From Bacteroidota bacterium (GTDB lineage Bacteria; Bacteroidota; Bacteroidia; B-17B0; Aurantibacillaceae), in NCBI GenBank assembly GCA_018267475.1, contig JAFDYI010000014.1, positions 1 to 64,000 of the forward strand: a stretch of 64,000 bases of DNA. Reading direction: 5' to 3'. Under the pieces are notes generated by a model, which saw only the letters and a program-made list of their open reading frames with translations, was not told the origin of the DNA and did not search any database. Both the position numbers and the translations under genes were made by a program. Below, one piece after another: positions 6,440 to 48,653 of the stretch (position 1 is the first letter of the stretch; each line of letters starts with the position of its first letter).

Positions 6440-7399
6440 ATGAAGATACACTTTATATATATGGTTTTTCTTCTTACCTCTGGTTTGCTTTTTTCCTTTA
6501 CGGAAAAGCCTGTTAAACCGGTGCCTCACAGCTTACCTAAAAAAGATACAGCAAACCTAGGCTACAAGCCCATTTCGCAAAATGAATTGGTTTATTTGGT
6601 GGATAGCATTTTGGACTTAGACAGCATATCGCCCGCCGTTATAAAGATGCTTAGCTATTACAAAACGGAACTTGACCATCAAAAAAACGAAAAACTAAGC
6701 ACCTTGCCGGCCTCTGAGCTATATACCGATTTTGACGACAAAAACTGCTTTGTGCCTGCCGCCAGCGAGTGCGTGCCCGACACTCTAAAGCTGGCCTTAA
6801 CCAGCGACTCCCTAGGTTCTTATTTTGCGCCCATTTGCGGGGTTATTACTTCTAACTACGGTTGGCGCGATAACCGCATGCACAAAGGCATTGACATAGA
6901 CCTAAACCGCGGCGACCAAGTACACGCCGCTTTTGATGGCATGGTGCGCCTAGCAAAATACAATGGAGGGTACGGCAATGTGGTTATTGTTAGGCACTAC
7001 AACGGTTTGGAAACGGTATATGCACATCTTTCTAAAATAAAAGTAAAATCGGGGCAGGTAGTTATAGCCGGGCAAACCATAGGCTTGGGAGGCGCCACCG
7101 GCCACGCTACGGGGTCGCACTTGCATTTTGAAGTACGTTTTATGGGGCACGCTTTAAACCCTGCTCAGTTTATATCCTTTACCGAACATAAAATTTTAGA
7201 AGACTCGCTCGTTATCAGAAAATCAAAATACGGCATGTTGGCTCTGCCTGCCCACGCTACTGTTTACACCGTGCAGCGCGGCGATAGCTGGTACGAAATC
7301 ATAAAGCGATACGGCATAAACAGCAAACAGCTTTGCGCCCTAAACGGTACTACCACGCGTTTTTACCTGCGCGCAGGGCAAAAAATAAGGGTTAATTAA
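6440..7399 (+). CDS. M23 peptidase with C-terminal LysM
   Basis: A 319-residue exported peptidoglycan endopeptidase (LytM/lysostaphin type). It has a signal peptide (about residues 1-20), a linker, then the M23 domain with His148 and Asp152 (HKGIDID) and the H-x-H pair His227/His229 (GSHLHFE). A LysM peptidoglycan-binding domain follows at about 274-318 (VYTVQRGDSWYEI). All zinc ligands are present, so it should be active rather than an EnvC-type activator. The last 73 bases of the gene (7326-7398) are repeated at 9368-9440, bounding the next three genes. The first copy is in frame and completes a normal LysM domain. Confidence 0.94.
   Translation: MKIHFIYMVFLLTSGLLFSFTEKPVKPVPHSLPKKDTANLGYKPISQNELVYLVDSILDLDSISPAVIKMLSYYKTELDHQKNEKLSTLPASELYTDFDDKNCFVPAASECVPDTLKLALTSDSLGSYFAPICGVITSNYGWRDNRMHKGIDIDLNRGDQVHAAFDGMVRLAKYNGGYGNVVIVRHYNGLETVYAHLSKIKVKSGQVVIAGQTIGLGGATGHATGSHLHFEVRFMGHALNPAQFISFTEHKILEDSLVIRKSKYGMLALPAHATVYTVQRGDSWYEIIKRYGINSKQLCALNGTTTRFYLRAGQKIRVN
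7326..7398 (+). repeat. 73-bp direct repeat, copy 1 (3' end of M23 gene)
   Basis: This stretch encodes the end of the LysM domain and matches 9368-9440 at 71 of 73 positions by my alignment. The two mismatches are third-position-like (cggtac/cggcac and cctgcg/cctacg). Copy 1 reaches the stop codon of the peptidase gene. Confidence 0.95.
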
Positions 7400-7460
7400 G
7401 AATTTAGTGCTGTGACATTAGAATGGTTTCCTGTCTTTTGTAAAATTTTGAAAATAAATT

Positions 7461-7490
7461 TTGAGAAACCAAATGGTTGCTATATATTTG
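7461..7490 (+). promoter_or_regulatory. Promoter of the arsR block
   Basis: A near-ideal Bacteroidota promoter: TTG at 7461-7463, a 19-base spacer, then TATATTTG at 7483-7490. It lies just inside the repeat-bounded block, so the block carries its own transcription start. Confidence 0.8.
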
Positions 7491-7495
7491 CAACC
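7475..7495 (+). promoter_or_regulatory. Palindromic operator over the arsR promoter
   Basis: Perfect 6-base arms GGTTGC and GCAACC flank a 9-base AT-rich centre and overlap the -7 element. Position and symmetry fit autorepression by the ArsR-type regulator encoded 35 bases downstream. This is inferred from sequence only. Confidence 0.6.
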
Positions 7496-7530
7496 GATTA
7501 GTTTCTTAATTATAAAGCTAAAAAAATAAA

Positions 7531-7851
7531 ATGAGGCGAGATGTTTTTCAAGCAATAGCAGATCCTACAAGGCGAGCCATTATTGCTTTAATTGCACTAC
7601 AGGCAATGACTGCGGGCGCTATTGCTGACAATTTTAATATAACCCGGCAAGCCGTTTCAAAACATTTGCGCATTTTAACCGAGTGCGAATTAGTTCAACA
7701 AAGTCAATTAGGTAGAGAAGTTTACTATTCACTTGAATTCGAAAAAATGAAAGAAATAGATAATTGGATAGGGCAATATCGCAACCTTTGGGAAAGTCGC
7801 TTTAGACAGTTGGACGATGTGTTGGTTCTATTAAAAAAACAAAAAAAATGA
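7531..7851 (+). CDS. ArsR-family transcriptional regulator
   Basis: A 106-residue winged-helix repressor. The opening [13 protein letters not shown] and the recognition helix [13 protein letters not shown] are typical of the ArsR subgroup often paired with SRPBCC/AHSA1 proteins. No Cys-based metal-binding motif is visible, so metal sensing is unlikely. It overlaps the next gene by four bases (ATGA), and an SRPBCC protein follows, which is the usual partner. A palindrome over its promoter suggests autoregulation. It is the first gene of the block enclosed by 73-bp direct repeats. Confidence 0.92.
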
Positions 7852-8381
7852 AAAATAATAGCTATTGCGCCTTTTTACGCGGCGTAAATGTAAAAGGAAC
7901 TGCCATGAAAATGGCTGAAGTTTGCTCTGTATTTGAAAAGGAAAATGTGGAAAAAGTTTCATCAATATTAGCTTCTGGCAATATCTTGTTTTCTTCCGAT
8001 AAAGATAAAAAGCAATTAAAAATAGTGTTAGAAAAATCATTATCTACACATTTTGATTACGAGGCTTTTCTGTTTATAAAAAGTAAAGAAGAAATAGAAA
8101 CACTTGTAGTCAAAAATCCGCTATCTTTTAGTGCTGCTTTTCATGTTTATGGGTTTGTAGGTATTGATGGGATTGAAAAAATACTAGCAGATGAGTTTGA
8201 AAAATCAAAAAAAATAAATGGAGAAGAAGCTAAAGTGGAGGCAAATAATTTTTACTGGAAAGTGCCTAAGGGTAATACTCTTGATTCTGAATTTGGGAAA
8301 ATATTGGGACAAAAAAAATTAAAAAATTATTTTACTTCCCGCAACATAAACACCTTTGAGAAGGTTTTAAAAAAGATGTAA
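7848..8381 (+). CDS. DUF1697 family protein
   Basis: A 177-residue protein of the DUF1697 family, whose biochemical role is not established. The family signature is at the N terminus ([12 protein letters not shown]) followed by an 'ASGNILFSS' segment, and the length is usual for the family. The start overlaps the arsR stop (ATGA), so translation is probably coupled. The gene looks more AT-rich than those outside the repeats. It is probably cytoplasmic, with no signal peptide. Confidence 0.85.
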
Positions 8382-8400
8382 CTTATAATCAATAAATAAA

Positions 8401-9363
8401 ATGAAAAAAAATCCAGCATTTGACTTTATCGTAGATAAAGCAACCAAAACGATTCGTGTAAAAAGAGAATTTAATTCCGAACTTTCGTTAGTATGGGATG
8501 CTTTTACGAAACCTGAAATTCTTGATCAATGGTGGGCTCCCAAGCCTTTTGCATCAAAAACAAAATACATGAATTTTGAAGTTGGCGGAAAAAGATTTTA
8601 CGCTATGATAAGTCCGGAAGGCCAAGAACATTGGTCTATTCAAGAGTACACGGCTATTTATCCAAAAACTCATTTTAAAATGAATAGCTTTTTTTCTGAC
8701 AAAGAAGGAAACCCTAATTTACCCGGATCTAATTGGGATTTAAACTTTAGCGAGGAAAATGGAACAACAAAAGTGAGTATTACTATTTATAACGAATCTC
8801 TTGACAGGATGGAAAGCATGATAGAAATGGGCTTTAAAGAGGGCTTCACAATGGTTCTTGAAAATCTTGATAAATATGTTGAAGAAAAGTTTATACTTCG
8901 CAAGCAAAATAAAGTAAGCAAGAAGCCAAGGGTATCAAACTATTTAAATTTTGACGGGAAAACGGAAGAAGCTTTTTTGTTTTATAAGTCGGTTTTTAAA
9001 ACGGAGTTTTCAGGAAAAGGAATTCAACGTTTTGGCGATATTCAAGCGAATGCAGGCAGCCCGCCTATTGCAGAAAGTATTAAAAATATGATATTGCATG
9101 TAGAGTTGCCAATTACAGAAAACTATGTTTTAATGGGCACAGATGCACCAAAAGAAATGGGATTTACAATAGTAAAAGGTAACAATATGCACATTTGTAT
9201 TGAGCCTGAAACAAAAGAAGAAGCAGATAGATTGTTTCAGGAACTGTCTATAAAAGGTAGTATTACCATGCCCATGGCTGATATGTTCTTTGGCGCCTAT
9301 TTTGGGGAATTTACAGACCAATATGGGATTAATTGGATGATACATTTTCAAAATACGTTATGA
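8401..9363 (+). CDS. SRPBCC (AHSA1) - VOC (PhnB-like) fusion protein
   Basis: A 320-residue two-domain protein. Residues about 10-160 are an SRPBCC/AHSA1-type ligand-binding domain ([19 protein letters not shown]). Residues about 175-318 are a PhnB-like vicinal-oxygen-chelate domain ([19 protein letters not shown], ending YGINWMIHF). Both domains are common as separate genes beside ArsR regulators, and here they are joined by a short basic linker. No metal or substrate can be assigned. The stop codon is only four bases before the second 73-bp direct repeat, so this gene ends the inserted block. Confidence 0.88.
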
Positions 9364-9367
9364 TGAT

Positions 9368-9440
9368 AACAGCTTTGCGCCCTAAACGGCACTACCACGC
9401 GTTTTTACCTACGCGCAGGGCAAAAAATAAGGGTTAATTA
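9368..9440 (+). repeat. 73-bp direct repeat, copy 2
   Basis: A copy of the 3' end of the M23 peptidase gene (7326-7398), here with no open gene upstream of it. The block between the copies is 1,969 bases, and the repeat-to-repeat period is 2,042 bases. Confidence 0.95.
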
Positions 9441-9489
9441 GCATCGTAAGCCTATATTTCTAGTATTTTTATACCGATTATTTCAAAAA

Positions 9490-10245
9490 ATGAATCGCGC
9501 TTTTTTTTCTATAAAAAAAATATTGTTTTTTGCAGCCCTCTTGCTGCTATCTTGCAAACATTGGCAAAGCACGCAAACACAGGCTCAGCACCTGGTGGCA
9601 AGCGAAGCAGGGATAGATAGTAACGTCGTAAAAACCATAGCGCCCTATAAGCAAAACTTAGACGTTAAAATGCACGAAATTATAGGGATGGCTCCGGCAG
9701 CTTTAGTAAAAAAACTACCAGAAAGTACTTTGGGAAACTTTTTTGCTGATGCTATTTTTGAAAAAGTAAAAAATACAGCGGGTATAGATACGGCTTATGC
9801 TTTTGCTTTATTTAATACGGGCGGTTTGCGCGCTTCGGTACCCGAAGGAAACGTTACAGTAGGTACCATGTACGAGCTGATGCCTTTTGAAAATAAATTG
9901 GTGGTATTAAAAATAAATGCCCAACGTTTACAAAAACTGCTCAATTTTGTGGCCACCAAACACGGAGCGCCCGTAGCCGGTATTCGCTTTGCTATTGATG
10001 ATGAAAAAGCATCGGATATATGGATACAAGGAAAACCTATAAATTCCGAAAAAAACTATTATGTAGCTACCAGCGATTACTTGGCTCATGGCGGCGACCA
10101 TTTTTTTGAAGCTGAAGAAGTTTTTGAAACAGCAGAAACGAATATGCTGCTTCGTGATGTTTTAATTGAGTATTGCAAGAATAAAAATAAACAAAATCAA
10201 CCCCTAACAGCAACCTTAGATGCCCGAATACACTACACAAAATAG
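9490..10245 (+). CDS. Lipoprotein with 5'-nucleotidase C-terminal domain
   Basis: A 251-residue lipoprotein (signal peptide ending LLLLSC, Cys about residue 22). It carries the substrate-binding C-terminal domain of 5'-nucleotidase/UshA-type enzymes: LPESTLGNFFADA, NTGGLRASVPEG and YELMPFENKLV. The catalytic metallophosphatase domain is absent here but is encoded by the next gene, which overlaps by 26 bases in another frame. The two products therefore probably work together as a split periplasmic nucleotidase that dephosphorylates nucleotides or sugar-nucleotides. The C-domain-first order is the reverse of the single-chain enzymes. Confidence 0.9.
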   Translation: MNRAFFSIKKILFFAALLLLSCKHWQSTQTQAQHLVASEAGIDSNVVKTIAPYKQNLDVKMHEIIGMAPAALVKKLPESTLGNFFADAIFEKVKNTAGIDTAYAFALFNTGGLRASVPEGNVTVGTMYELMPFENKLVVLKINAQRLQKLLNFVATKHGAPVAGIRFAIDDEKASDIWIQGKPINSEKNYYVATSDYLAHGGDHFFEAEEVFETAETNMLLRDVLIEYCKNKNKQNQPLTATLDARIHYTK

Positions 10246-11158
10246 AAGAGATTTTTTGCGCTATATGTTTGGCAGTTCTGCTGCCTTAATGCTAAGCGAT
10301 AGTATGTATGCCGAACATCTATATCAAAAAGAAAACATAGAAAAACTAACTATTTTATACACTAACGATGTTCATAGCCGTATAGAGCCTTTTCCCAATA
10401 ACGACCCTAAATACCCTAACCAAGGCGGAGCAGCCCGAAGGGCGGCCATCATAAAAAAAATACGAAGCGAAGAAAAAAACGTGTTGTTGCTAGATGCCGG
10501 CGATATTTTTCAAGGCACCCCATATTTTAATTTTTATGCCGGCGAATTAGAGTATAAATTGATGACACAAATGGGGTATGATATAGCCACTTTCGGAAAT
10601 CATGATTTTGATTTGGGTGTAGAAAACATTGTAAAGCAGCTGCCTTATGCAGGTTTTGAATTTGTTTGTGCCAACTACCAATTTAAAGATTCGCCTTTGG
10701 AAGGAAGAATAAACCCATACAAAATAATAAAAAAAGGTTCCTTAAAAATAGGCGTATTGGGTTTAGGCATTGAACTGCAAGGTTTGGTTGAGAAGAAAAA
10801 ATACGGCGCCATACAATATCAACAACCTATCGAGATAGCACAAAAAACAGCGGCCATCTTAAAACACGATAAAAAATGCGATTATGTAATATGCCTGTCT
10901 CATTTAGGCTATGATTACAAGGAAAATAAGATAAGCGATACTGTTTTGTCTGAAAAAACAGAAAACATAGACCTTATTATCGGAGGGCATACCCACACCT
11001 TTTTAAATGAACCCAAGCTTAAAGTCAATGTCGCTAATAAGCCGGTGTATATTACGCAGGTAGGCTGGGCGGGTATATGGTTAGGACGTATAGATGTGTC
11101 GTTTAGCAAGAGCAGCAAGCATCAAGCAGCTATAAGTTCTGTGTTAAAAGTATCTTAA
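10220..11158 (+). CDS. Metallophosphatase half of split 5'-nucleotidase (Tat-exported)
   Basis: A 312-residue calcineurin-like phosphatase with the 5'-nucleotidase metal motifs in order: TNDVHSR, DAGDIFQGTP, GNHDFDLG, SHLGYD and GGHTHTF. The N terminus has a twin-arginine export signal (NRRDFLRYMFGSSAALML), so it should be folded before export. It overlaps the preceding C-terminal-domain gene by 26 bases, which indicates coupled translation and a shared function. It ends soon after the catalytic domain, at the usual length for a single-domain form. Confidence 0.92.
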   Translation: MPEYTTQNRRDFLRYMFGSSAALMLSDSMYAEHLYQKENIEKLTILYTNDVHSRIEPFPNNDPKYPNQGGAARRAAIIKKIRSEEKNVLLLDAGDIFQGTPYFNFYAGELEYKLMTQMGYDIATFGNHDFDLGVENIVKQLPYAGFEFVCANYQFKDSPLEGRINPYKIIKKGSLKIGVLGLGIELQGLVEKKKYGAIQYQQPIEIAQKTAAILKHDKKCDYVICLSHLGYDYKENKISDTVLSEKTENIDLIIGGHTHTFLNEPKLKVNVANKPVYITQVGWAGIWLGRIDVSFSKSSKHQAAISSVLKVS

Positions 11159-20009: not shown

Positions 20010-20270
20010 TTATAAACAGGAAGGATTAAGCGACATATTTAAGTTGAAGTAGTATAAACGTTCACCCTCTTTCATAGCCAACTGTATATCTTGCGGTTGG
20101 GCTAAGGTAGCTTTTTGAGAAACCGACGGCGCTTTATGCACCTGCCTACAAGCGGTGCAAACATTTCGGAGTTTACGGTTGCCCGCTGCATCATAAGTAT
20201 ATTGCTCTTTTTGTGCTTGCATGGCAAAACTTGCAAAGACCAGTAAAAGTAATGTGAGTGTTTTTTTCAT
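20010..20270 (-). CDS. Secreted RHS N-terminal remnant (single YD repeat)
   Basis: An 86-residue ORF with a signal peptide (ending FAMQAQ), then YTYDAAGNRKLRN, which is a YD/RHS repeat unit, and an unrelated short tail. It looks like the 5' end of a larger RHS gene that has lost the rest, or a very short RHS-like secreted peptide. Its ATG overlaps the stop of the orphan RHS module before it (the ATGA pair at 20267-20270), so it may be translated by coupling. It closes the RHS array; the T9SS protein gene follows on the same strand. Confidence 0.6.
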   Translation of the reverse strand: MKKTLTLLLLVFASFAMQAQKEQYTYDAAGNRKLRNVCTACRQVHKAPSVSQKATLAQPQDIQLAMKEGERLYYFNLNMSLNPSCL

Positions 20271-20605
20271 AGTGTTTTATCCATTAGTGGGTCAATGCTT
20301 AAAAACAAACCCAGTTTGCTGTCGTAAATACGCCCGTTCATATTTATCAGGTCAAAGTTTTGTAAATGCTCGTGCCCGGTAAAGCCTCGGTAAATAATAC
20401 CTGTGGGCGGCCGCACGTTGGTATAAGTCCAGTCGTTTGGGTTTCTATACCTGCCCCAGGGGTCAAAGCTTTGTTCGGCACGGGTTGCGCTTAGTTTTAC
20501 TACAACTGTATCTTCGTTGGCTTGTATGTTTTTTGCAAAGCAAAGTAACAACAGCACAACAACTATTTTACTGCATTTGCTTTTTATGTTATTACTGTTT
20601 TGCAT
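20267..20605 (-). CDS. Orphan RHS core module with own signal peptide (A)
   Basis: A 112-residue protein. A signal peptide is followed by QANEDTVVVKLS and then a stretch of RHS core from RAEQSFDPWGRYRNP to LSIDPLMDKT, where it stops. The core is nearly identical at DNA level to 23586-23791 in the main RHS gene. It has no C-terminal toxin tip, because the frame ends exactly where other copies continue with PGISPYHYA. It is probably a recombination donor or receptor segment, or a decayed cassette. I infer no enzymatic activity. The leader is shared with the two other orphan modules at 20743-21039 and 21450-22367. Confidence 0.75.
   Translation of the reverse strand: MQNSNNIKSKCSKIVVVLLLLCFAKNIQANEDTVVVKLSATRAEQSFDPWGRYRNPNDWTYTNVRPPTGIIYRGFTGHEHLQNFDLINMNGRIYDSKLGLFLSIDPLMDKTL
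20274..20479 (-). repeat. RHS core repeat, copy in orphan module A
   Basis: A 206-base tract that aligns without gaps to 23586-23791, with only scattered mismatches by eye. It encodes RAEQSFDP through PLMDKT. Such tracts allow tips to be swapped by homologous recombination. Confidence 0.85.
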
Positions 20606-20632
20606 TTTTACTAAAAGTGATTTTCTGATACA

Positions 20633-20743
20633 TTACCCGGGATATACACTAAAACTATCTGTAACATATTTATCAAGGCAAATAAATAAGATAATTAACA
20701 GCATAATAATTAGGATTATAATTATGACAACTTTTTTTTTCAT
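20633..20743 (-). CDS. Small predicted membrane peptide (36 aa)
   Basis: An ATG-initiated frame whose first base overlaps the stop codon of orphan module B (TAATG). It encodes three lysines, then about 20 hydrophobic residues rich in Ile/Leu (VVIIIILIIMLLIILFICL), then a short polar tail ending YPG. The position directly after a toxin-tip-like module is where an immunity gene is expected. A 36-residue single-span peptide could be a truncated immunity protein or a chance frame. The tight overlap and the transmembrane pattern are the only support. Confidence 0.45.
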   Translation of the reverse strand: MKKKVVIIIILIIMLLIILFICLDKYVTDSFSVYPG

Positions 20744-21039
20744 TAGCGTATATTAATTGAACCATATATTGCCGAATAAGGGTAATTAGCAAATATTGCA
20801 TTATTTGTATTATTACCGTAATACCCTAATGTAACTTGTCTTCCTGAATATGGAATTTCACCATAATAAGGGGCAACTTCAGGATTAGGTATTAAATCAA
20901 ATTGCGGTAGGTGTTCGTGTCCGGTAAAGCCTCTGTATATTATGCCTGTTGGTAGTTTTACTACAACCGTATCTTCGTTGGCTTGTATTTTTCCAAACCA
21001 AATAAATAACAAGAAAAATATGTATATTATCCTTTTCAT
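20743..21039 (-). CDS. Orphan RHS module with own signal peptide and short tip (B)
   Basis: A 98-residue protein with a signal peptide (ending FGKIQA), the shared NEDTVVVKL leader, then only a short RHS core segment (PTGIIYRGFTGHEHL) that switches to a unique 50-residue tail rich in Tyr, Asn and Pro. The tail does not match any toxin family I recognise. Compared with modules A and C the core has been cut down, and the tail starts right after PQFDLIPNP. It lies 12 bases downstream of the candidate immunity gene at 21052-21438, so it follows the previous toxin-immunity pair. Confidence 0.7.
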   Translation of the reverse strand: MKRIIYIFFLLFIWFGKIQANEDTVVVKLPTGIIYRGFTGHEHLPQFDLIPNPEVAPYYGEIPYSGRQVTLGYYGNNTNNAIFANYPYSAIYGSINIR

Positions 21040-21051
21040 TAAATGTTATAC

Positions 21052-21438
21052 TTATTTTCTAAAGGGGAATTTTTTAAAAGAATAAGTCTTAATTCCTTTG
21101 CCGTATTCGTGTACTCCTATTACTTGTTTTTGAATGCTTTTTGAGTTTAAAATTTGTGATATGTTAGTTATTTTAGTGTCTGAAGTATCTTTAATAGAAA
21201 TAAAGTAAGTGTTCTGTCGTTTTGTTTGTTCATCAGGAACAATATTAAAGTAATATTCTGATAATAAATTCCAACACTGTTTATTCATTAGATTAAAATT
21301 ATTTAGTCCAATAAAATAATTAGTTACACTGTCTTTTAAATACTCTTTATTATCATAAAATACACTAATATCACATTTTTTCTGAGCGTAGGATATATAC
21401 GCTGTAAAAGATAATAGTATTACGAATTTCAATCTCAT
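21052..21438 (-). CDS. Secreted small protein, candidate immunity to module C
   Basis: A 128-residue protein with a signal peptide (ending ISYAQ) and a mature part with no recognised domain. It starts 11 bases after orphan RHS module C and is followed by module B. Position alone (small exported protein directly after an RHS tip) suggests it neutralises that tip in the periplasm, as immunity proteins do in polymorphic toxin loci. Base composition is AT-rich, unlike the RHS core segments but like the variable tips. Function is an inference from context. Confidence 0.6.
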   Translation of the reverse strand: MRLKFVILLSFTAYISYAQKKCDISVFYDNKEYLKDSVTNYFIGLNNFNLMNKQCWNLLSEYYFNIVPDEQTKRQNTYFISIKDTSDTKITNISQILNSKSIQKQVIGVHEYGKGIKTYSFKKFPFRK

Positions 21439-21449
21439 ATTTTAAATCT

Positions 21450-22367
21450 TTACTTTGTAATTTCTATTGCTTTTATTAACGCTTGAAAGTGCATATGATT
21501 TTGATGAGGAAATGTGGCAGATGAATTAGGAATAAAAGGAGCGTTCCCATCTTTGTTTAATGTAATTACATTCCAAATACCTTCATTATTAAATCCAAAC
21601 TTTCTAAAGTAATTTGCGTATTCAGCACTTTTTACAGCATCAGCATTATCATTTCTCGTGTCTGACTGAACAGAATATGGTACTCTTTCTTTACCAATAT
21701 ATTGAACATCAACTAATGTTTTCTTAGAGGGTTTACCTGGATTTTTTTGGTTTGTATTATTGGGAGAATGAACCCCTTCTTCATTCATTAGCTGATTAAC
21801 TTTTGAAACGTAGCCTGTCTTTTCAAAATATGAATATGTAGCACCTAAGAAAGATGCTGCGCCATCTTCGGGTAAAAAATTTGTTCCTTGATAAAACAAT
21901 TGATGAGCAAAGAAAGATGTTTTTTGAGGTAATTCAATCATACCTTTTTTATTAACTTTATATGTCCCTAAATCTACTTTTGTACCATCATGTTTTACAT
22001 AAGTATATGTATTCGTTAGGTCTTTAGTTCTTTCAACTCCTACTGCTCCGTCTTCGTGTATCAAATAATTATCTTCATAGTTCCCTGTAATATCAGTAAA
22101 CTTAAGCGGGTTGTTATTAGCATAGTGGTAAGGGCTAATACCCGGTGTTTTATCCATCAAAGGGTCAATACTTAAAAATAAGCCAAGTTTACTGTCGTAC
22201 ACACGTCCGTTCATATTTATCAGGTCAAAGTTTTGTAAATGCTCGTGCCCGGTAAAGCCTCGGTAAGTAATACCTTTAGATAGCTTTACAACAACTGTAT
22301 CTTCATTTGCTTGTACTTTTGCAAGCATAATAAAAAATAAAGCTATCATTTGTAGTGTTTTTTTCAT
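21450..22367 (-). CDS. Orphan RHS module with signal peptide and toxin-like tip (C)
   Basis: A 305-residue protein. It has a signal peptide (ending AKVQA), the shared NEDTVVVKLS leader, an RHS core (GITYRGFTGHEHL ... GISPYHYANNNPLKFTD, about residues 30-95), then a unique 210-residue tip. The tip ends with VDVQYIG and HQNHMHFQ, which resemble the Asp and H-x-H zinc ligands of LAS-type murein peptidases (MepA/M15). I do not find the expected first His, so a peptidoglycan-cutting role is only a suggestion. An exported 128-residue candidate immunity protein follows 11 bases later. Confidence 0.75.
   Translation of the reverse strand: MKKTLQMIALFFIMLAKVQANEDTVVVKLSKGITYRGFTGHEHLQNFDLINMNGRVYDSKLGLFLSIDPLMDKTPGISPYHYANNNPLKFTDITGNYEDNYLIHEDGAVGVERTKDLTNTYTYVKHDGTKVDLGTYKVNKKGMIELPQKTSFFAHQLFYQGTNFLPEDGAASFLGATYSYFEKTGYVSKVNQLMNEEGVHSPNNTNQKNPGKPSKKTLVDVQYIGKERVPYSVQSDTRNDNADAVKSAEYANYFRKFGFNNEGIWNVITLNKDGNAPFIPNSSATFPHQNHMHFQALIKAIEITK
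22093..22270 (-). repeat. RHS core repeat, copy in module C
   Basis: Encodes the core from ITYRGFTGHEHL to NPLKFTD and is closely similar to about 23535-23716 in the main RHS gene. It extends 40 bases further toward the tip than the copy in module A. Confidence 0.8.
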
Positions 22368-22374
22368 CTATTGA

Positions 22375-22794
22375 TTAATTCTTTTTGCAATCTTCGTATT
22401 TTCCATTAAAAATTAAACTAAAATCATAAGACCGCCATAATGATTTTCCACTATGAAAATCTTTTGTTTCTTCATCTGTCATTTCTTTTTTAGTTAAAAA
22501 TAAACTATCTGGAATAGTATTCTCTATTATTGAATTGCTAATAACTGTTATGGGATTTGCTCCCCAATTAATATCCATACCTCCTGAATAAATATGCATT
22601 TTAATGTATTCTTTTCGTTTTATATTGTCATAAGCACCAAAAAAAAGTCTTACATACTTACTTTCATTTGGAATAATCGAAGTCGTATACTCTAACGTTA
22701 AACTTTCTTTTTTATTCGGAGAATAGATTGTATAACTTTCGTGAAAACACGAAGTCAAAAAAAACACACTAATTATATAGAATAATATCTTCAT
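22375..22794 (-). CDS. Lipoprotein, candidate immunity to the main RHS tip
   Basis: I place the start at the ATG at 22794 (MKILFYIISVFFLTSC), giving 139 residues with a clear lipobox Cys about residue 16. A longer frame upstream would bury the signal peptide. The start is one base after the stop of the main RHS gene, so translation is almost certainly coupled. The mature part has no family I recognise. A small lipoprotein directly after an RHS toxin is the usual layout of an immunity gene, and the lipid anchor would place it in the periplasm or on the membrane. Confidence 0.68.
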   Translation of the reverse strand: MKILFYIISVFFLTSCFHESYTIYSPNKKESLTLEYTTSIIPNESKYVRLFFGAYDNIKRKEYIKMHIYSGGMDINWGANPITVISNSIIENTIPDSLFLTKKEMTDEETKDFHSGKSLWRSYDFSLIFNGKYEDCKKN

Positions 22795-22795
22795 T

Positions 22796-24424
22796 TTATT
22801 TTTGAAATTGATAGTAACCTGCCCTTTGTAAATCTTGAGACACTTTGTCGTCGTGGAATGCGGGTGAAATATTAATACCTTGAATCGGTGTCCCGTTAAT
22901 AGCACCTCCCATTAATTGTTGGTCAAGCCAATTTAATCCAGATTTTAAATAAAATAAAAATCCTTTTTGATTTCCATTATCGTTATATGCTCCAAAACCA
23001 GACATTGTTGTTTCATATGACAATCCTAACATATTGGCAGTTCTTCCTGCAAAAAAATTACCTTGGTCTCTTCTAGTCATAATTAAATACTCATTATAAA
23101 AAGAAGCTTGGTATCCATATTTATCTCTTTCTGCTTGCGTTGTGTTTTTATAATCAAGCCCAACAGATTTAATATCATATTTACCTCCATTTCCCGCATT
23201 AGCCATATAATCTTTAAAAGATTCATACATACTATGACTTAACATAAAATTTCCTAATGTTCTAGTTGCGTTTGAAACATTCTGATGAGCTTCATCCCCA
23301 AAATCGACTTTCCCAATCCATTCTCCTGTTTTTGGATTTTTAAACGTATATTCAGATCCTGTATATCCAACATATGTGCCTGATTTTTTATATTCTTCTG
23401 TTTTACCTTCATCAAACTTTTCTTTTGTAACACCTTTCACTTGATATACTCCTTTATCTCCGTCAATTTTTCCTCCAATCACATTTCCAAATTCATCTAC
23501 AAAAGTGCTTTGCCCGGTTGTGCCACTCGGGTCAGTAAATTTAAGTGGGTTATTCAAAGCATAGTGGTAAGGGCTAATACCCGGTGTTTTATCCATCAAA
23601 GGGTCAATACTTAAAAATAAGCCCAGTTTGCTATCGTACACACGCCCGTTCATATTTATCAGGTCAAAGTTTTGTAAATGCTCGTGCCCGGTAAAACCTC
23701 GGTAAATAATACCTGTGGGCGGCAGCACGTTGGTATAAGTCCAGTCGTTTGGGTTTCTATACCTGCCCCAGGGGTCAAAGCTTTGTTCGGCTCTTACAGT
23801 TCCGTTGGCATCAGTTAGTTTTAAAATACTGCCCAGGTGGTCGGTATATACAAAATACAAAGTATCATCGCTACCGTTTTTGGCGTATATGGCGCATAAG
23901 CCGCTGGGGGCTTGTATGTAGCTAAGCTCACGGCTGTATTGGTTTGCTCCTGTTGTTTTTTCGTAGTTGGGTACATAGTCTCTTTTTAGCTGTGTGCCTG
24001 TATTGGTGTTGGTTAGTATGCTTTGTACGCGCTGCATATCGGGTCCGTAGCTTATGTCGTAGGTATAATCGCCTTCGGTTAGGTTGGTAAGTTTGCTAAA
24101 GCTGTTGTAGGCAGCACTTTGGGTGTTGCTGCTAATGCTTGCGTCCACGTTTTCTACGGTGTTTAGTTGGTTAAAGGCGTTGTTTTGATAAGCATAGTTA
24201 CCTAAGTTAGAGCCATTAGGGCTTGTGGATGTTTTTTTGGCAATGTTGCCTGTGCCCGTAGTTTGGTACGCAAGGGTAGTAACGTTGGCATTAATGGTGT
24301 TGGTGGTAAGGCGGTTTATGCCATCGTAGCCAAAGGTTTCGGTAAGGCCGCGCAAGAGGTCGCTTCTGCCGGTTATGTTGCCGTTGGTAATATCGGGTGT
24401 GATGCGTACATTATAGGTACTCAT
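22796..24424 (-). CDS. RHS-repeat protein with C-terminal toxin-like tip
   Basis: I start this 542-residue protein at ATG 24424 (MSTYNVRITP), six bases after a perfect promoter -7 element. Residues about 1-225 carry YD/RHS repeats (ETFGYDGINRL, DYTYDISYGPDMQR, YFVYTDHLGSILKL). The conserved core end RAEQSFDPWGRY to NPLKFTDPSGT runs to about 300, and a 240-residue variable tip follows. The tip has a GNFFAGRTANMLGLS segment that faintly recalls the polymorphic toxin-44 family; I would not assign an activity. There is no signal peptide, and the core is much shorter than that of typical RHS proteins, so either the 5' part has been lost or export depends on something else. Confidence 0.82.
   Translation of the reverse strand: MSTYNVRITPDITNGNITGRSDLLRGLTETFGYDGINRLTTNTINANVTTLAYQTTGTGNIAKKTSTSPNGSNLGNYAYQNNAFNQLNTVENVDASISSNTQSAAYNSFSKLTNLTEGDYTYDISYGPDMQRVQSILTNTNTGTQLKRDYVPNYEKTTGANQYSRELSYIQAPSGLCAIYAKNGSDDTLYFVYTDHLGSILKLTDANGTVRAEQSFDPWGRYRNPNDWTYTNVLPPTGIIYRGFTGHEHLQNFDLINMNGRVYDSKLGLFLSIDPLMDKTPGISPYHYALNNPLKFTDPSGTTGQSTFVDEFGNVIGGKIDGDKGVYQVKGVTKEKFDEGKTEEYKKSGTYVGYTGSEYTFKNPKTGEWIGKVDFGDEAHQNVSNATRTLGNFMLSHSMYESFKDYMANAGNGGKYDIKSVGLDYKNTTQAERDKYGYQASFYNEYLIMTRRDQGNFFAGRTANMLGLSYETTMSGFGAYNDNGNQKGFLFYLKSGLNWLDQQLMGGAINGTPIQGINISPAFHDDKVSQDLQRAGYYQFQK
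23586..23791 (-). repeat. RHS core repeat, copy in main RHS gene
   Basis: A 206-base segment shared with 20274-20479 and, over its 3' two thirds, with 22093-22270. Confidence 0.85.
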
Positions 24425-24429
24425 AAGTG

Positions 24430-24460
24430 CAAATATAGTACACATTTTTACCTAAAGCAA
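24430..24460 (-). promoter_or_regulatory. Promoter of the RHS array
   Basis: On the minus strand TTG (24458-24460), 20 bases, then TATATTTG (24430-24437). The start codon at 24424 follows within six bases, so the transcript would be nearly leaderless. Confidence 0.75.
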
Positions 24461-46375: not shown

Positions 46376-46408
46376 GTTGTATAGCCGTTTGAATTTATTT
46401 CAACCCAG

Positions 46409-46580
46409 ATTATGCATGAGTTCCGTTCATCACCTTTGAAACATAATAACAGTAATGGTTTCGGAAGATTTTATCTATCCCCTTTTTTAACGCATAGCAT
46501 TAGAAATGGTATTTTGAAACACTAGTGTTGTCAAGGAATACGGATCAAAATAACGGAGCGAAATTTGCCTAATGCATAAT
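46409..46580. mobile_element. MITE-like element, copy 1 (172 bp)
   Basis: Bounded by inverted ends ATTATGCATGAG (46409-46420) and CTAATGCATAAT (46569-46580), matching at 11 of 12 positions when one is reversed and complemented, with weaker pairing beyond. No transposase or open frame is inside. No clear target-site duplication was seen. It ends six bases from the stop codon of the adjacent minus-strand gene. Confidence 0.55.
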
Positions 46581-46586
46581 TTGGCT

Positions 46587-47390
46587 TTATTCAAACGACT
46601 TCAAGTTACCAAAACCACCGTAGGTACAACTGTATTTTTTTATGAGCGCTTTGGGTATTTTAAAGTAGGCGATATGGTCTGCGTAAACAATAGCCATCTC
46701 ATTACCGTTGTTTTTAAAAGATATGGTTATCTCGCAATCTTTTTTATACTTCACATCTGTACATTTAAAAGTCCATTCGCTTTTAGAAGCGGTATCTGCG
46801 CTTAACACAGTATAGGTATTACCCTAAATGCTGCTTTTTACATTGTGTAATACAAGTTCTTTATGAAAGTCGTCAATGATAAAGTTCCACCGTTGGGGTA
46901 AGTCATCATAGAAGGTTTTAGTGGTATTGCTGTACATAACACAAGAGGTAAAAGGCAAAGAGCGCTCGGTTATTTCCTCGTAGTTCATAAAGCGTATAAC
47001 CCCTATATAGTCCCTCATTTCCTTAACCCCATCGTACAAATGGAAGCAGTAGTCGCAGGTGTAGCCCGGAAACATATCTTGTTTGGTAATAGGGCTCGTG
47101 TACGCACACCCTATAAACACAACGCTATCTCTATATACGATAACCTGTTTAGCAACAATAACCCCGTCTTTACATAATAACCCATTTTTACGATATGCTA
47201 AAATTTTTTTTTCACTTGGGTATATTACCGTATTGTGTTCCTGTCTATTTTGGTTAGAGTACTTGTCTGTCTTATAGTCGTAATAGGCATACATTGTGGT
47301 ATAAAATTTTTTGCCGTCTAAGTCATGCGCTTGAGCGTTAATAGCTATACACACAATAATTGCGGCAGCTATTGTTTTAATGGTTTTCAT
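46587..47390 (-). pseudogene. Secreted protein gene copy with in-frame TAG
   Basis: The same 804-base frame as the intact copy at 47653-48456. It is interrupted at codon 189 by TAG (46824-46826), where the other copy has CAG (Gln). The part before the stop is a 188-residue protein with signal peptide (ending NAQA). The part after it (79 codons) encodes exactly the same residues as the intact copy. N-terminal residues differ at 14 of 188 positions by my count, so the copies are not newly made. Because the downstream part keeps only synonymous differences, either the stop is recent, it is read through, or the C-terminal part is still used. Confidence 0.8.
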
Positions 47391-47474
47391 ACGTTTTGTT
47401 TTTTTAAAGGTTTATACTTGGTTTCATCAATTTATAATTAAAGTATTAAAAGGTAACCAAGTATTTCAACCCAG

Positions 47475-47646
47475 ATTATGCATGAGTTCCGTTCATCACC
47501 TTTGAAACATAATAATAGTAATGGTTTCGGAAGATTTTATCTATCCCCTTTTTTAACGCATAGCATTAGAAATGGTATTTTGAAACACTAGTGTTGTCAA
47601 GGGATACGGATCAAAATAACGGAGCGAAATTTGCCTAATGCATAAT
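47475..47646. mobile_element. MITE-like element, copy 2 (172 bp)
   Basis: A near-identical copy of 46409-46580 with the same inverted ends. It probably arose by the tandem duplication, not by a second insertion, because the flanks match too. Confidence 0.55.
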
Positions 47647-47652
47647 TTGGCT

Positions 47653-48456
47653 TTATTCAAACGACTTCAAGTTACCAAAACCACCGTAGGTACAACTGTA
47701 TTTTTTTATGAGCGCTTTGGGTATTTTAAAGTAGGCGATATGGTCTGCGTAAACGATAGCCATCTCGTTGCCGTTGTTTTTAAAAGATATGGTTATCTCG
47801 CAATCTTTTTTATACTTCACATCTGTACATTTAAAAGTCCATTCGCTTTTAGAGGCAGTGTCCGCGCTTAACACAGTATAGGTATTACCCTGAATGCTGC
47901 TTTTTACATTGTGCAGCACCAACTCTTTATGAAAGTCATCAATGATAAAGTTCCACCGTTGGGGTAAGTCATCATAGAAGGTTTTAGTGGTATTGCTGTA
48001 CATAACACAAGAGGTAAAAGGTAAAGAACGCTCGGTTATTTCCTCATAGTTCATAGAGCGTATAACACCTATGTAGTCTCTCATATCAGTAACCCCATCG
48101 TACAAATGGAAGCAGTAGTCGCAAGTGTAACCCGGATACATATCTTGCTTGGTAATAGGGCTTGTGTATGTACACCCTATAAACACAACACTATCTCTAT
48201 ATACGATAACCTGTTTAGCAACAATAATACCGTCTATGCACATCGCCCCGTTTTTTCGATAAGCTAAAATTTTTTTTTCGCTTGGGTATATTACCGTATT
48301 GTGCTCAACCCTATTTTGATTAGAGTACTTGTCTGTCTTATAGTCGTAGTCGGCATACATTGTGGTATGAAATTTTTTGCCGTCTAAGTCATGCGCTTGG
48401 GTGTTAATAGCTATACATATAATAATTGCGGCAGCTATTGTTTTAATGGTTTTCAT
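47653..48456 (-). CDS. Secreted protein of unknown function (intact copy)
   Basis: A 267-residue protein with a signal peptide (about 1-20, ending NTQA) and a mature domain with several Cys residues (FIGCTY, YTCDYCFHLYDG, FTSCVMYS) that may form disulfides. No family is recognised. It is the intact member of a tandem pair with 46587-47390. The MITE-like element lies immediately downstream of its stop. The 197 bases upstream of its start hold the end of the duplicated unit and no other gene. Confidence 0.75.
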   Translation of the reverse strand: MKTIKTIAAAIIICIAINTQAHDLDGKKFHTTMYADYDYKTDKYSNQNRVEHNTVIYPSEKKILAYRKNGAMCIDGIIVAKQVIVYRDSVVFIGCTYTSPITKQDMYPGYTCDYCFHLYDGVTDMRDYIGVIRSMNYEEITERSLPFTSCVMYSNTTKTFYDDLPQRWNFIIDDFHKELVLHNVKSSIQGNTYTVLSADTASKSEWTFKCTDVKYKKDCEITISFKNNGNEMAIVYADHIAYFKIPKALIKKYSCTYGGFGNLKSFE

Positions 48457-48653
48457 ACGTTTTGTTTTTTAAAGGTTTATACTTGGTTTCATCAATTTAT
48501 AATCAAAGTATTAAAAGGTAACCAAGTATTTTAAAGTTTATTTTAAGCAATAAACAAAACACCCGCGCAGGTTTCTGCCGTTTTTTGTTTTAGCGTTAAA
48601 TGACCGGAAATAAAAGTATTTATAGTAGAAATGCCGTAGGCAAGTAAAATGCT

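Follow-up and report, generated by a model that had tools for sequence, protein, structure and literature searches.

A three-gene regulatory operon between two copies of an M23 peptidase gene end in a Bacteroidota genome, possibly left by a one-off insertion

Introduction

The window, the whole 64,000-nucleotide stretch of Bacteroidota DNA analyzed here, carries an M23 peptidase gene, a block of three genes behind it, and then a second copy of the last bases of the peptidase gene. How did a small regulatory operon come to lie between a gene end and a duplicate of that end? The preliminary description of this DNA offered two answers: that the block had been inserted into the 3′ end of the peptidase gene while restoring it, as integrative elements do at tRNA genes, or that it had arrived by recombination with DNA of a donor that carried the block at this locus.

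Results

We compared the two copies of the M23 gene end base by base. The last 73 bases of the M23–LysM gene (7326–7398) recur at 9368–9440 as a direct repeat with two mismatches and 97% identity, exactly as previously reported, and the match reaches one base further, to the M23 stop codon, giving 74 columns that end in TAA and TAG. For a 73-bp repeat of this kind, about 1e-29 pairs are expected by chance in 64 kb. All of the differences are silent third-position transitions, namely T at 7348 against C at 9390 (GGT/GGC), G at 7369 against A at 9411 (CTG/CTA), and A at 7399 against G at 9441 in the stop codon (TAA/TAG). Copy 2 starts at AACAGC, 4 nt past the stop codon of the SRPBCC–VOC gene (9361–9363); it lacks its own start codon, is preceded by in-frame stops, and is otherwise undamaged, with no indels. 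Downstream, unrelated sequence runs into split 5′-nucleotidase genes. The cargo is accordingly enclosed by direct repeats at the 3′ end of the M23 gene, which is left intact, an arrangement shared with integrative elements and CIMEs.

The silent character of the differences was then set against two models. Under plain transition decay of copy 2, the probability that all three would be silent is 0.05, and under a two-copy in-situ model it is 0.15; the silent differences modestly favor two pre-existing coding alleles over decay in situ. Polarizing the three differences with outgroups failed because third positions were too variable, and three differences are few. A search of the 37-contig draft genome revealed no other copy of the 74-bp repeat. 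Its fold was not unusual compared with synonymous-codon controls, 15% of which fold equally well, and a recombinase core site within the repeat was rejected, as the fold is no stronger than the codons dictate.

The block itself comprises 2.04 kb and exactly one operon of three genes (Table 1). Pfam domains bore out the earlier naming of its products as an ArsR regulator, a DUF1697 protein, and an SRPBCC–VOC fusion. NCBIfam models placed the regulator in an ArsR/SmtB-type subfamily, and the SdpR autorepressor model NF033789 matched it below its cut-off. Judging from its families, the SRPBCC–VOC product may be a regulated small-molecule protein. Pfam searches found no recombinase, recombinase remnant, or any mobility gene among the three genes, in agreement with the preliminary description, which had seen no integrase inside. 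The nearest recombinase is an integron-integrase/XerA-like tyrosine recombinase on the minus strand at the contig end (127–1206), ~6 kb upstream and beyond gyrB and a GH3 gene.

Table 1 Features of the M23 locus and their coordinates in the window
Feature	Coordinates	Strand	Basis
M23 peptidase with C-terminal LysM, intact	6440..7399	+	PF01551, PF01476; orthologues stop at same residue
Repeat copy 1, coding, stop TAA	7326..7399	+	sequence comparison of copies
Predicted operator 1, GAAACCAAATGGTTGC, 16-bp pseudo-palindrome	7465..7480	+	motif conserved before homologous arsR
Match to Bacteroidota −7 box TAnnTTTG, TATATTTG, directly before operator 2	7483..7490	+	
Predicted operator 2, GCAACCGATTAGTTTC, 16-bp pseudo-palindrome	7490..7505	+	motif conserved before homologous arsR
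ArsR-family regulator, probable autorepressor	7531..7851	+	PF01022/PF12840; NF033788 above cut-off
DUF1697 protein, at ATGA joint of regulator and SRPBCC gene	7848..8381	+	PF08002
SRPBCC (AHSA1-like)–VOC fusion	8401..9363	+	PF08327, PF06983 (3-dmu-9_3-mt/VOC)
Repeat copy 2, untranslated scar of M23 3′ end, ends TAG	9368..9441	+	sequence comparison of copies
CATCGTAAGCC	9442 onward		directly after repeat copy 2
5′-nucleotidase C-terminal domain protein, right flank	9490..10245	+	PF02872
Metallophosphatase half of split 5′-nucleotidase, right flank	10220..11158	+	PF00149

We next examined the region upstream of the regulator gene, where the preliminary description had placed a promoter of the block's own and a palindromic operator. 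The case proved stronger than that, with two pseudo-palindromes conserved before homologous operons. The operator motif was found upstream in 69 of 100 homologous arsR genes, compared with 0.11 expected from shuffles; in 31 upstream regions two copies are spaced 24–26 bp apart, and in 63 a TAnnTTTG box lies directly before the second operator, counts that are slightly inflated because five of the loci (L001, L003, L033, L146, and L170) are overlapping views of the window locus. TAnnTTTG is the consensus of the Bacteroidota −7 box (PMC9723704). The double operator GAAACCGAATAGTTGC-N10-GCAACCGATTAGTTTC around this box also stands before the ArsR–SRPBCC operons in L081, L087, L110, and many other loci. 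Since double operator and box are conserved upstream, the operon brings its own promoter and is probably autoregulated, with the ArsR protein predicted to bind both operators. The double operator before Bacteroidota ArsR–SRPBCC operons thus amounts to a testable regulatory prediction.

ArsR followed by SRPBCC(–VOC) is a widespread operon of Bacteroidota, frequently joined by an ATGA overlap. The block belongs to this family, having an ArsR-type regulator followed by an SRPBCC gene and the conserved operator, and it shares with the other ArsR–SRPBCC(AHSA1)(–VOC) operons both the gene pair and the double operator around the TAnnTTTG box. It differs from them in the DUF1697 gene at the ATGA joint, which among the compared loci occurs only here.

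Is the block foreign to this genome? Its genes have GC contents of 0.374, 0.303, and 0.345, compared with 0.398 ± 0.042 for the 54 other genes in the window; the DUF1697 gene is the most AT-rich (z = −2.2). That the block is AT-richer than its flanks, as claimed earlier, is therefore real, though the difference is moderate. GC3 in the block is 0.24–0.30, compared with 0.38, and its codon-bias distance (0.280 vs 0.204 ± 0.043) exceeds the mean for comparably sized gene runs by 1.8 SD, while staying below their maximum. Phylogenetic analysis grouped the SRPBCC–VOC protein with proteins from a Bacteroidetes MAG, another genus of the same family, and a group made up mostly of Pedobacter; the full-length homologue from the same genus (G006) is distant, being only 50% identical. 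The best relatives of the block are scattered over Bacteroidota. Taken together, composition and tree suggest that the block was acquired horizontally.

We then analyzed the gene neighborhoods of relatives. Neither the block nor a duplicated M23 end was present at any of the M23 orthologues in the genus and family (0 of 13), so that the relatives lack both at M23 and none showed the block alone or the repeat alone, the patterns that the preliminary description had named as telling against insertion. Adjacency of M23 and 5′-nucleotidase genes was seen in no relative (13 M23 loci and 11 nucleotidase loci, with no shared neighborhood), and no donor with M23 adjoining the block was found. The M23 proteins are 61–72% identical within the genus, too distant for population-level inference, and a search of the genus yielded no second genome close enough to be the same species.

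Carriage of the block by other replicons and as a recurrent cassette was also considered. Phage carriage was rejected, as searches of IMG/VR gave no relative of the SRPBCC–VOC protein, and two pieces of the repeat had no exact match there; so was plasmid carriage, for which there were partial matches only and none covering 80%. Homologous operons with flanking repeats were found at 2 of 64 loci, no excess over the 3.9% of control intervals, and the notion of a recurrent repeat-flanked cassette was rejected at this rate despite two promising loci, L120 and L081. In Flavobacterium cauense (L120:4742–7252), a duplicated CAP-domain lipoprotein gene encloses an ArsR–SRPBCC operon; the two copies align at 94% identity across 734 columns and share a long central stretch free of differences. 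In Pedobacter mendelii (L081:5298–5375), an 80-column, 88% copy of a VOC gene 3′ end stands upstream of an ArsR–SRPBCC operon.

Discussion

Three routes lead to the same product. An element bearing the gene end could insert site-specifically, a circle bearing it could integrate by a single crossover, or a homologous crossover within M23 could be combined with an illegitimate join on the right. Our tentative preference, held with a little less than even confidence, is for the last, with the block a horizontally acquired, autoregulated operon that was inserted at the M23 3′ end together with a diverged allele of that end through one homologous and one illegitimate join. Incoming DNA would have carried the operon and a slightly different allele of the M23 end. 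One crossover within the M23 homology would have left the M23 gene ending in the donor version, now copy 1, and the other join would have been illegitimate, perhaps at the short AACAGC match, placing the operon end before the last 74 bases of the recipient M23 gene, now copy 2. The M23 gene would thereby have stayed intact, its former end surviving as a silent remnant ahead of the nucleotidase pair, and a later exchange between the two copies could cleanly remove the block. The three silent differences would fit a donor M23 allele.

Illegitimate joins at 3–10-nt matches during transformation are documented in work cited in PMC8504540. Homology-facilitated illegitimate recombination in transformation, cited in that source, combines a homologous anchor with a short-match join and would give exactly such a product; for the present organism it is a proposal. 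Recombination from a donor, which the preliminary description had offered as its alternative, explains the locus at least as well as an integrative element does, but not in its simplest form: a simple double crossover at the same locus would make no duplication. Either one join must have been non-homologous or the repeat was already present in the donor.

Could the block instead be a decayed or cis-mobilizable element, inserted by a recombinase as a circle bearing the M23 3′ end, with its integration genes lost or supplied in trans? We regard this as less likely than one-off recombination, but as a serious rival to it. In E. coli MG1655, we measured the e14/icd repeat at 165 bp with 12 differences, 11 of them at third positions and 10 silent. 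Both e14 in icd, with its icdC scar, and the M23 locus consist of an intact gene, cargo, and an untranslated 3′-end copy differing almost only at third positions, the topology and silent signature that an element would leave. The two differ in that e14 is about 15 kb long, encodes intE and xisE, and has the 165-bp repeat, whereas the block is 2 kb, recombinase-free, and bounded by 74 bp. Phage 21 also integrates in icd of E. coli, restoring the gene. The mode of insertion is already known from cases such as prophage e14, and the M23 locus is a further example; because the e14 signature appears here on a smaller scale, the analogy with integration drawn at the outset is sound in form. Cargo between gene-end repeats without an integrase is likewise known from CIMEs (PMC5704250) and from 15 Dehalococcoides ssrA islands (PMC3146451), which resemble the block in being bounded by copies of a gene 3′ end and lacking integration genes. 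These, however, stand in tandem with, or descend from, integrase elements at the same site, none of which was seen here.

A tyrosine recombinase of non-XerC/D type does lie 6 kb from the block, but gyrB and GH3 stand between them. Against an element we also count the missing recombinase or remnant within the block, the ordinary fold of the repeat and its lack of further genomic copies, the 13 orthologues without a duplicated M23 end, and the two repeat pieces that found no match in IMG/VR. The silent differences do not decide the matter, since both the illegitimate-join and the element routes predict two alleles. What tips the balance toward one-off recombination is that the block is a single complete operon ending just past its last gene, and that no recombinase, further repeat copy elsewhere, unusual fold, or excess of flanking repeats at homologous operons was seen. 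Of the original proposal, insertion restoring the M23 3′ end agrees with the anatomy and the e14-like signature, while the integrative element lacks a recombinase, a further repeat copy, a fold signature, an IMG/VR match, or an excess of repeats around homologous operons to support it. That the block is a recombinase-less 2-kb cassette with the M23 end as its attachment site, moved in trans, for example by the recombinase 6 kb away, strikes us as highly improbable.

Two further explanations were weighed. The block might be an older resident between the M23 and nucleotidase genes, the 74-bp end having been copied later by template switching or local duplication. M23 gene order is not conserved in relatives, which would allow for an old block here, but a copy landing precisely in the gap that separates the final stop codon of the operon from the flank would then be a coincidence, and the atypical composition of the block and the silence of every repeat difference speak against it; we consider this improbable. 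A chimeric assembly that merged a block-carrying strain with a strain lacking the block would accord with a 37-contig draft and with silent differences at about 4%, which resemble strain-level divergence. The longest exact run between the copies, however, is 29 bases, below usual k-mer lengths, and the junction at 9364–9373 matches at only about six bases, which would leave a k-mer assembler no overlap by which to join the strains; a chimera seems very unlikely. Under the favored one-off insertion, the locus would show a small regulatory operon entering the chromosome behind a cell-wall gene without harm and leaving a scar that permits its clean loss.

Other features of the window and genome

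The 126 bases beside the 127–1206 recombinase recur at the ends of contigs C3 and C4 with 93–95% identity. They can form a symmetric nested hairpin (CCGAA/TTCGG, TTCGC/GCGAA, and CAAC/GTTG), the fold energy of which is not unusual (z = −0.3), and this contig-end repeat is possibly a recombination-site repeat. Near the homologous recombinase in relatives, a search for integron-type repeats gave nothing clear. In relative G010, a fragment (L184:4681–4926) corresponds to the C-terminal 82 residues of the window recombinase with 77% identity and is separated from the nucleotidase genes by ~2 kb.

Contig C11 of the same genome (L204:1–7773) encodes a second tyrosine recombinase on the minus strand (6667–7773) beside small uncharacterized genes, and this region is possibly a prophage or another integrated element. 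Elsewhere in the window, 46396–48534 is duplicated in tandem, with a 1066-base period and parts that are 99% identical. A minus-strand cluster of open reading frames at 20267–24445 has no Pfam match; several of its members are very low in GC, and the cluster shares internal repeats of 40–208 nt.
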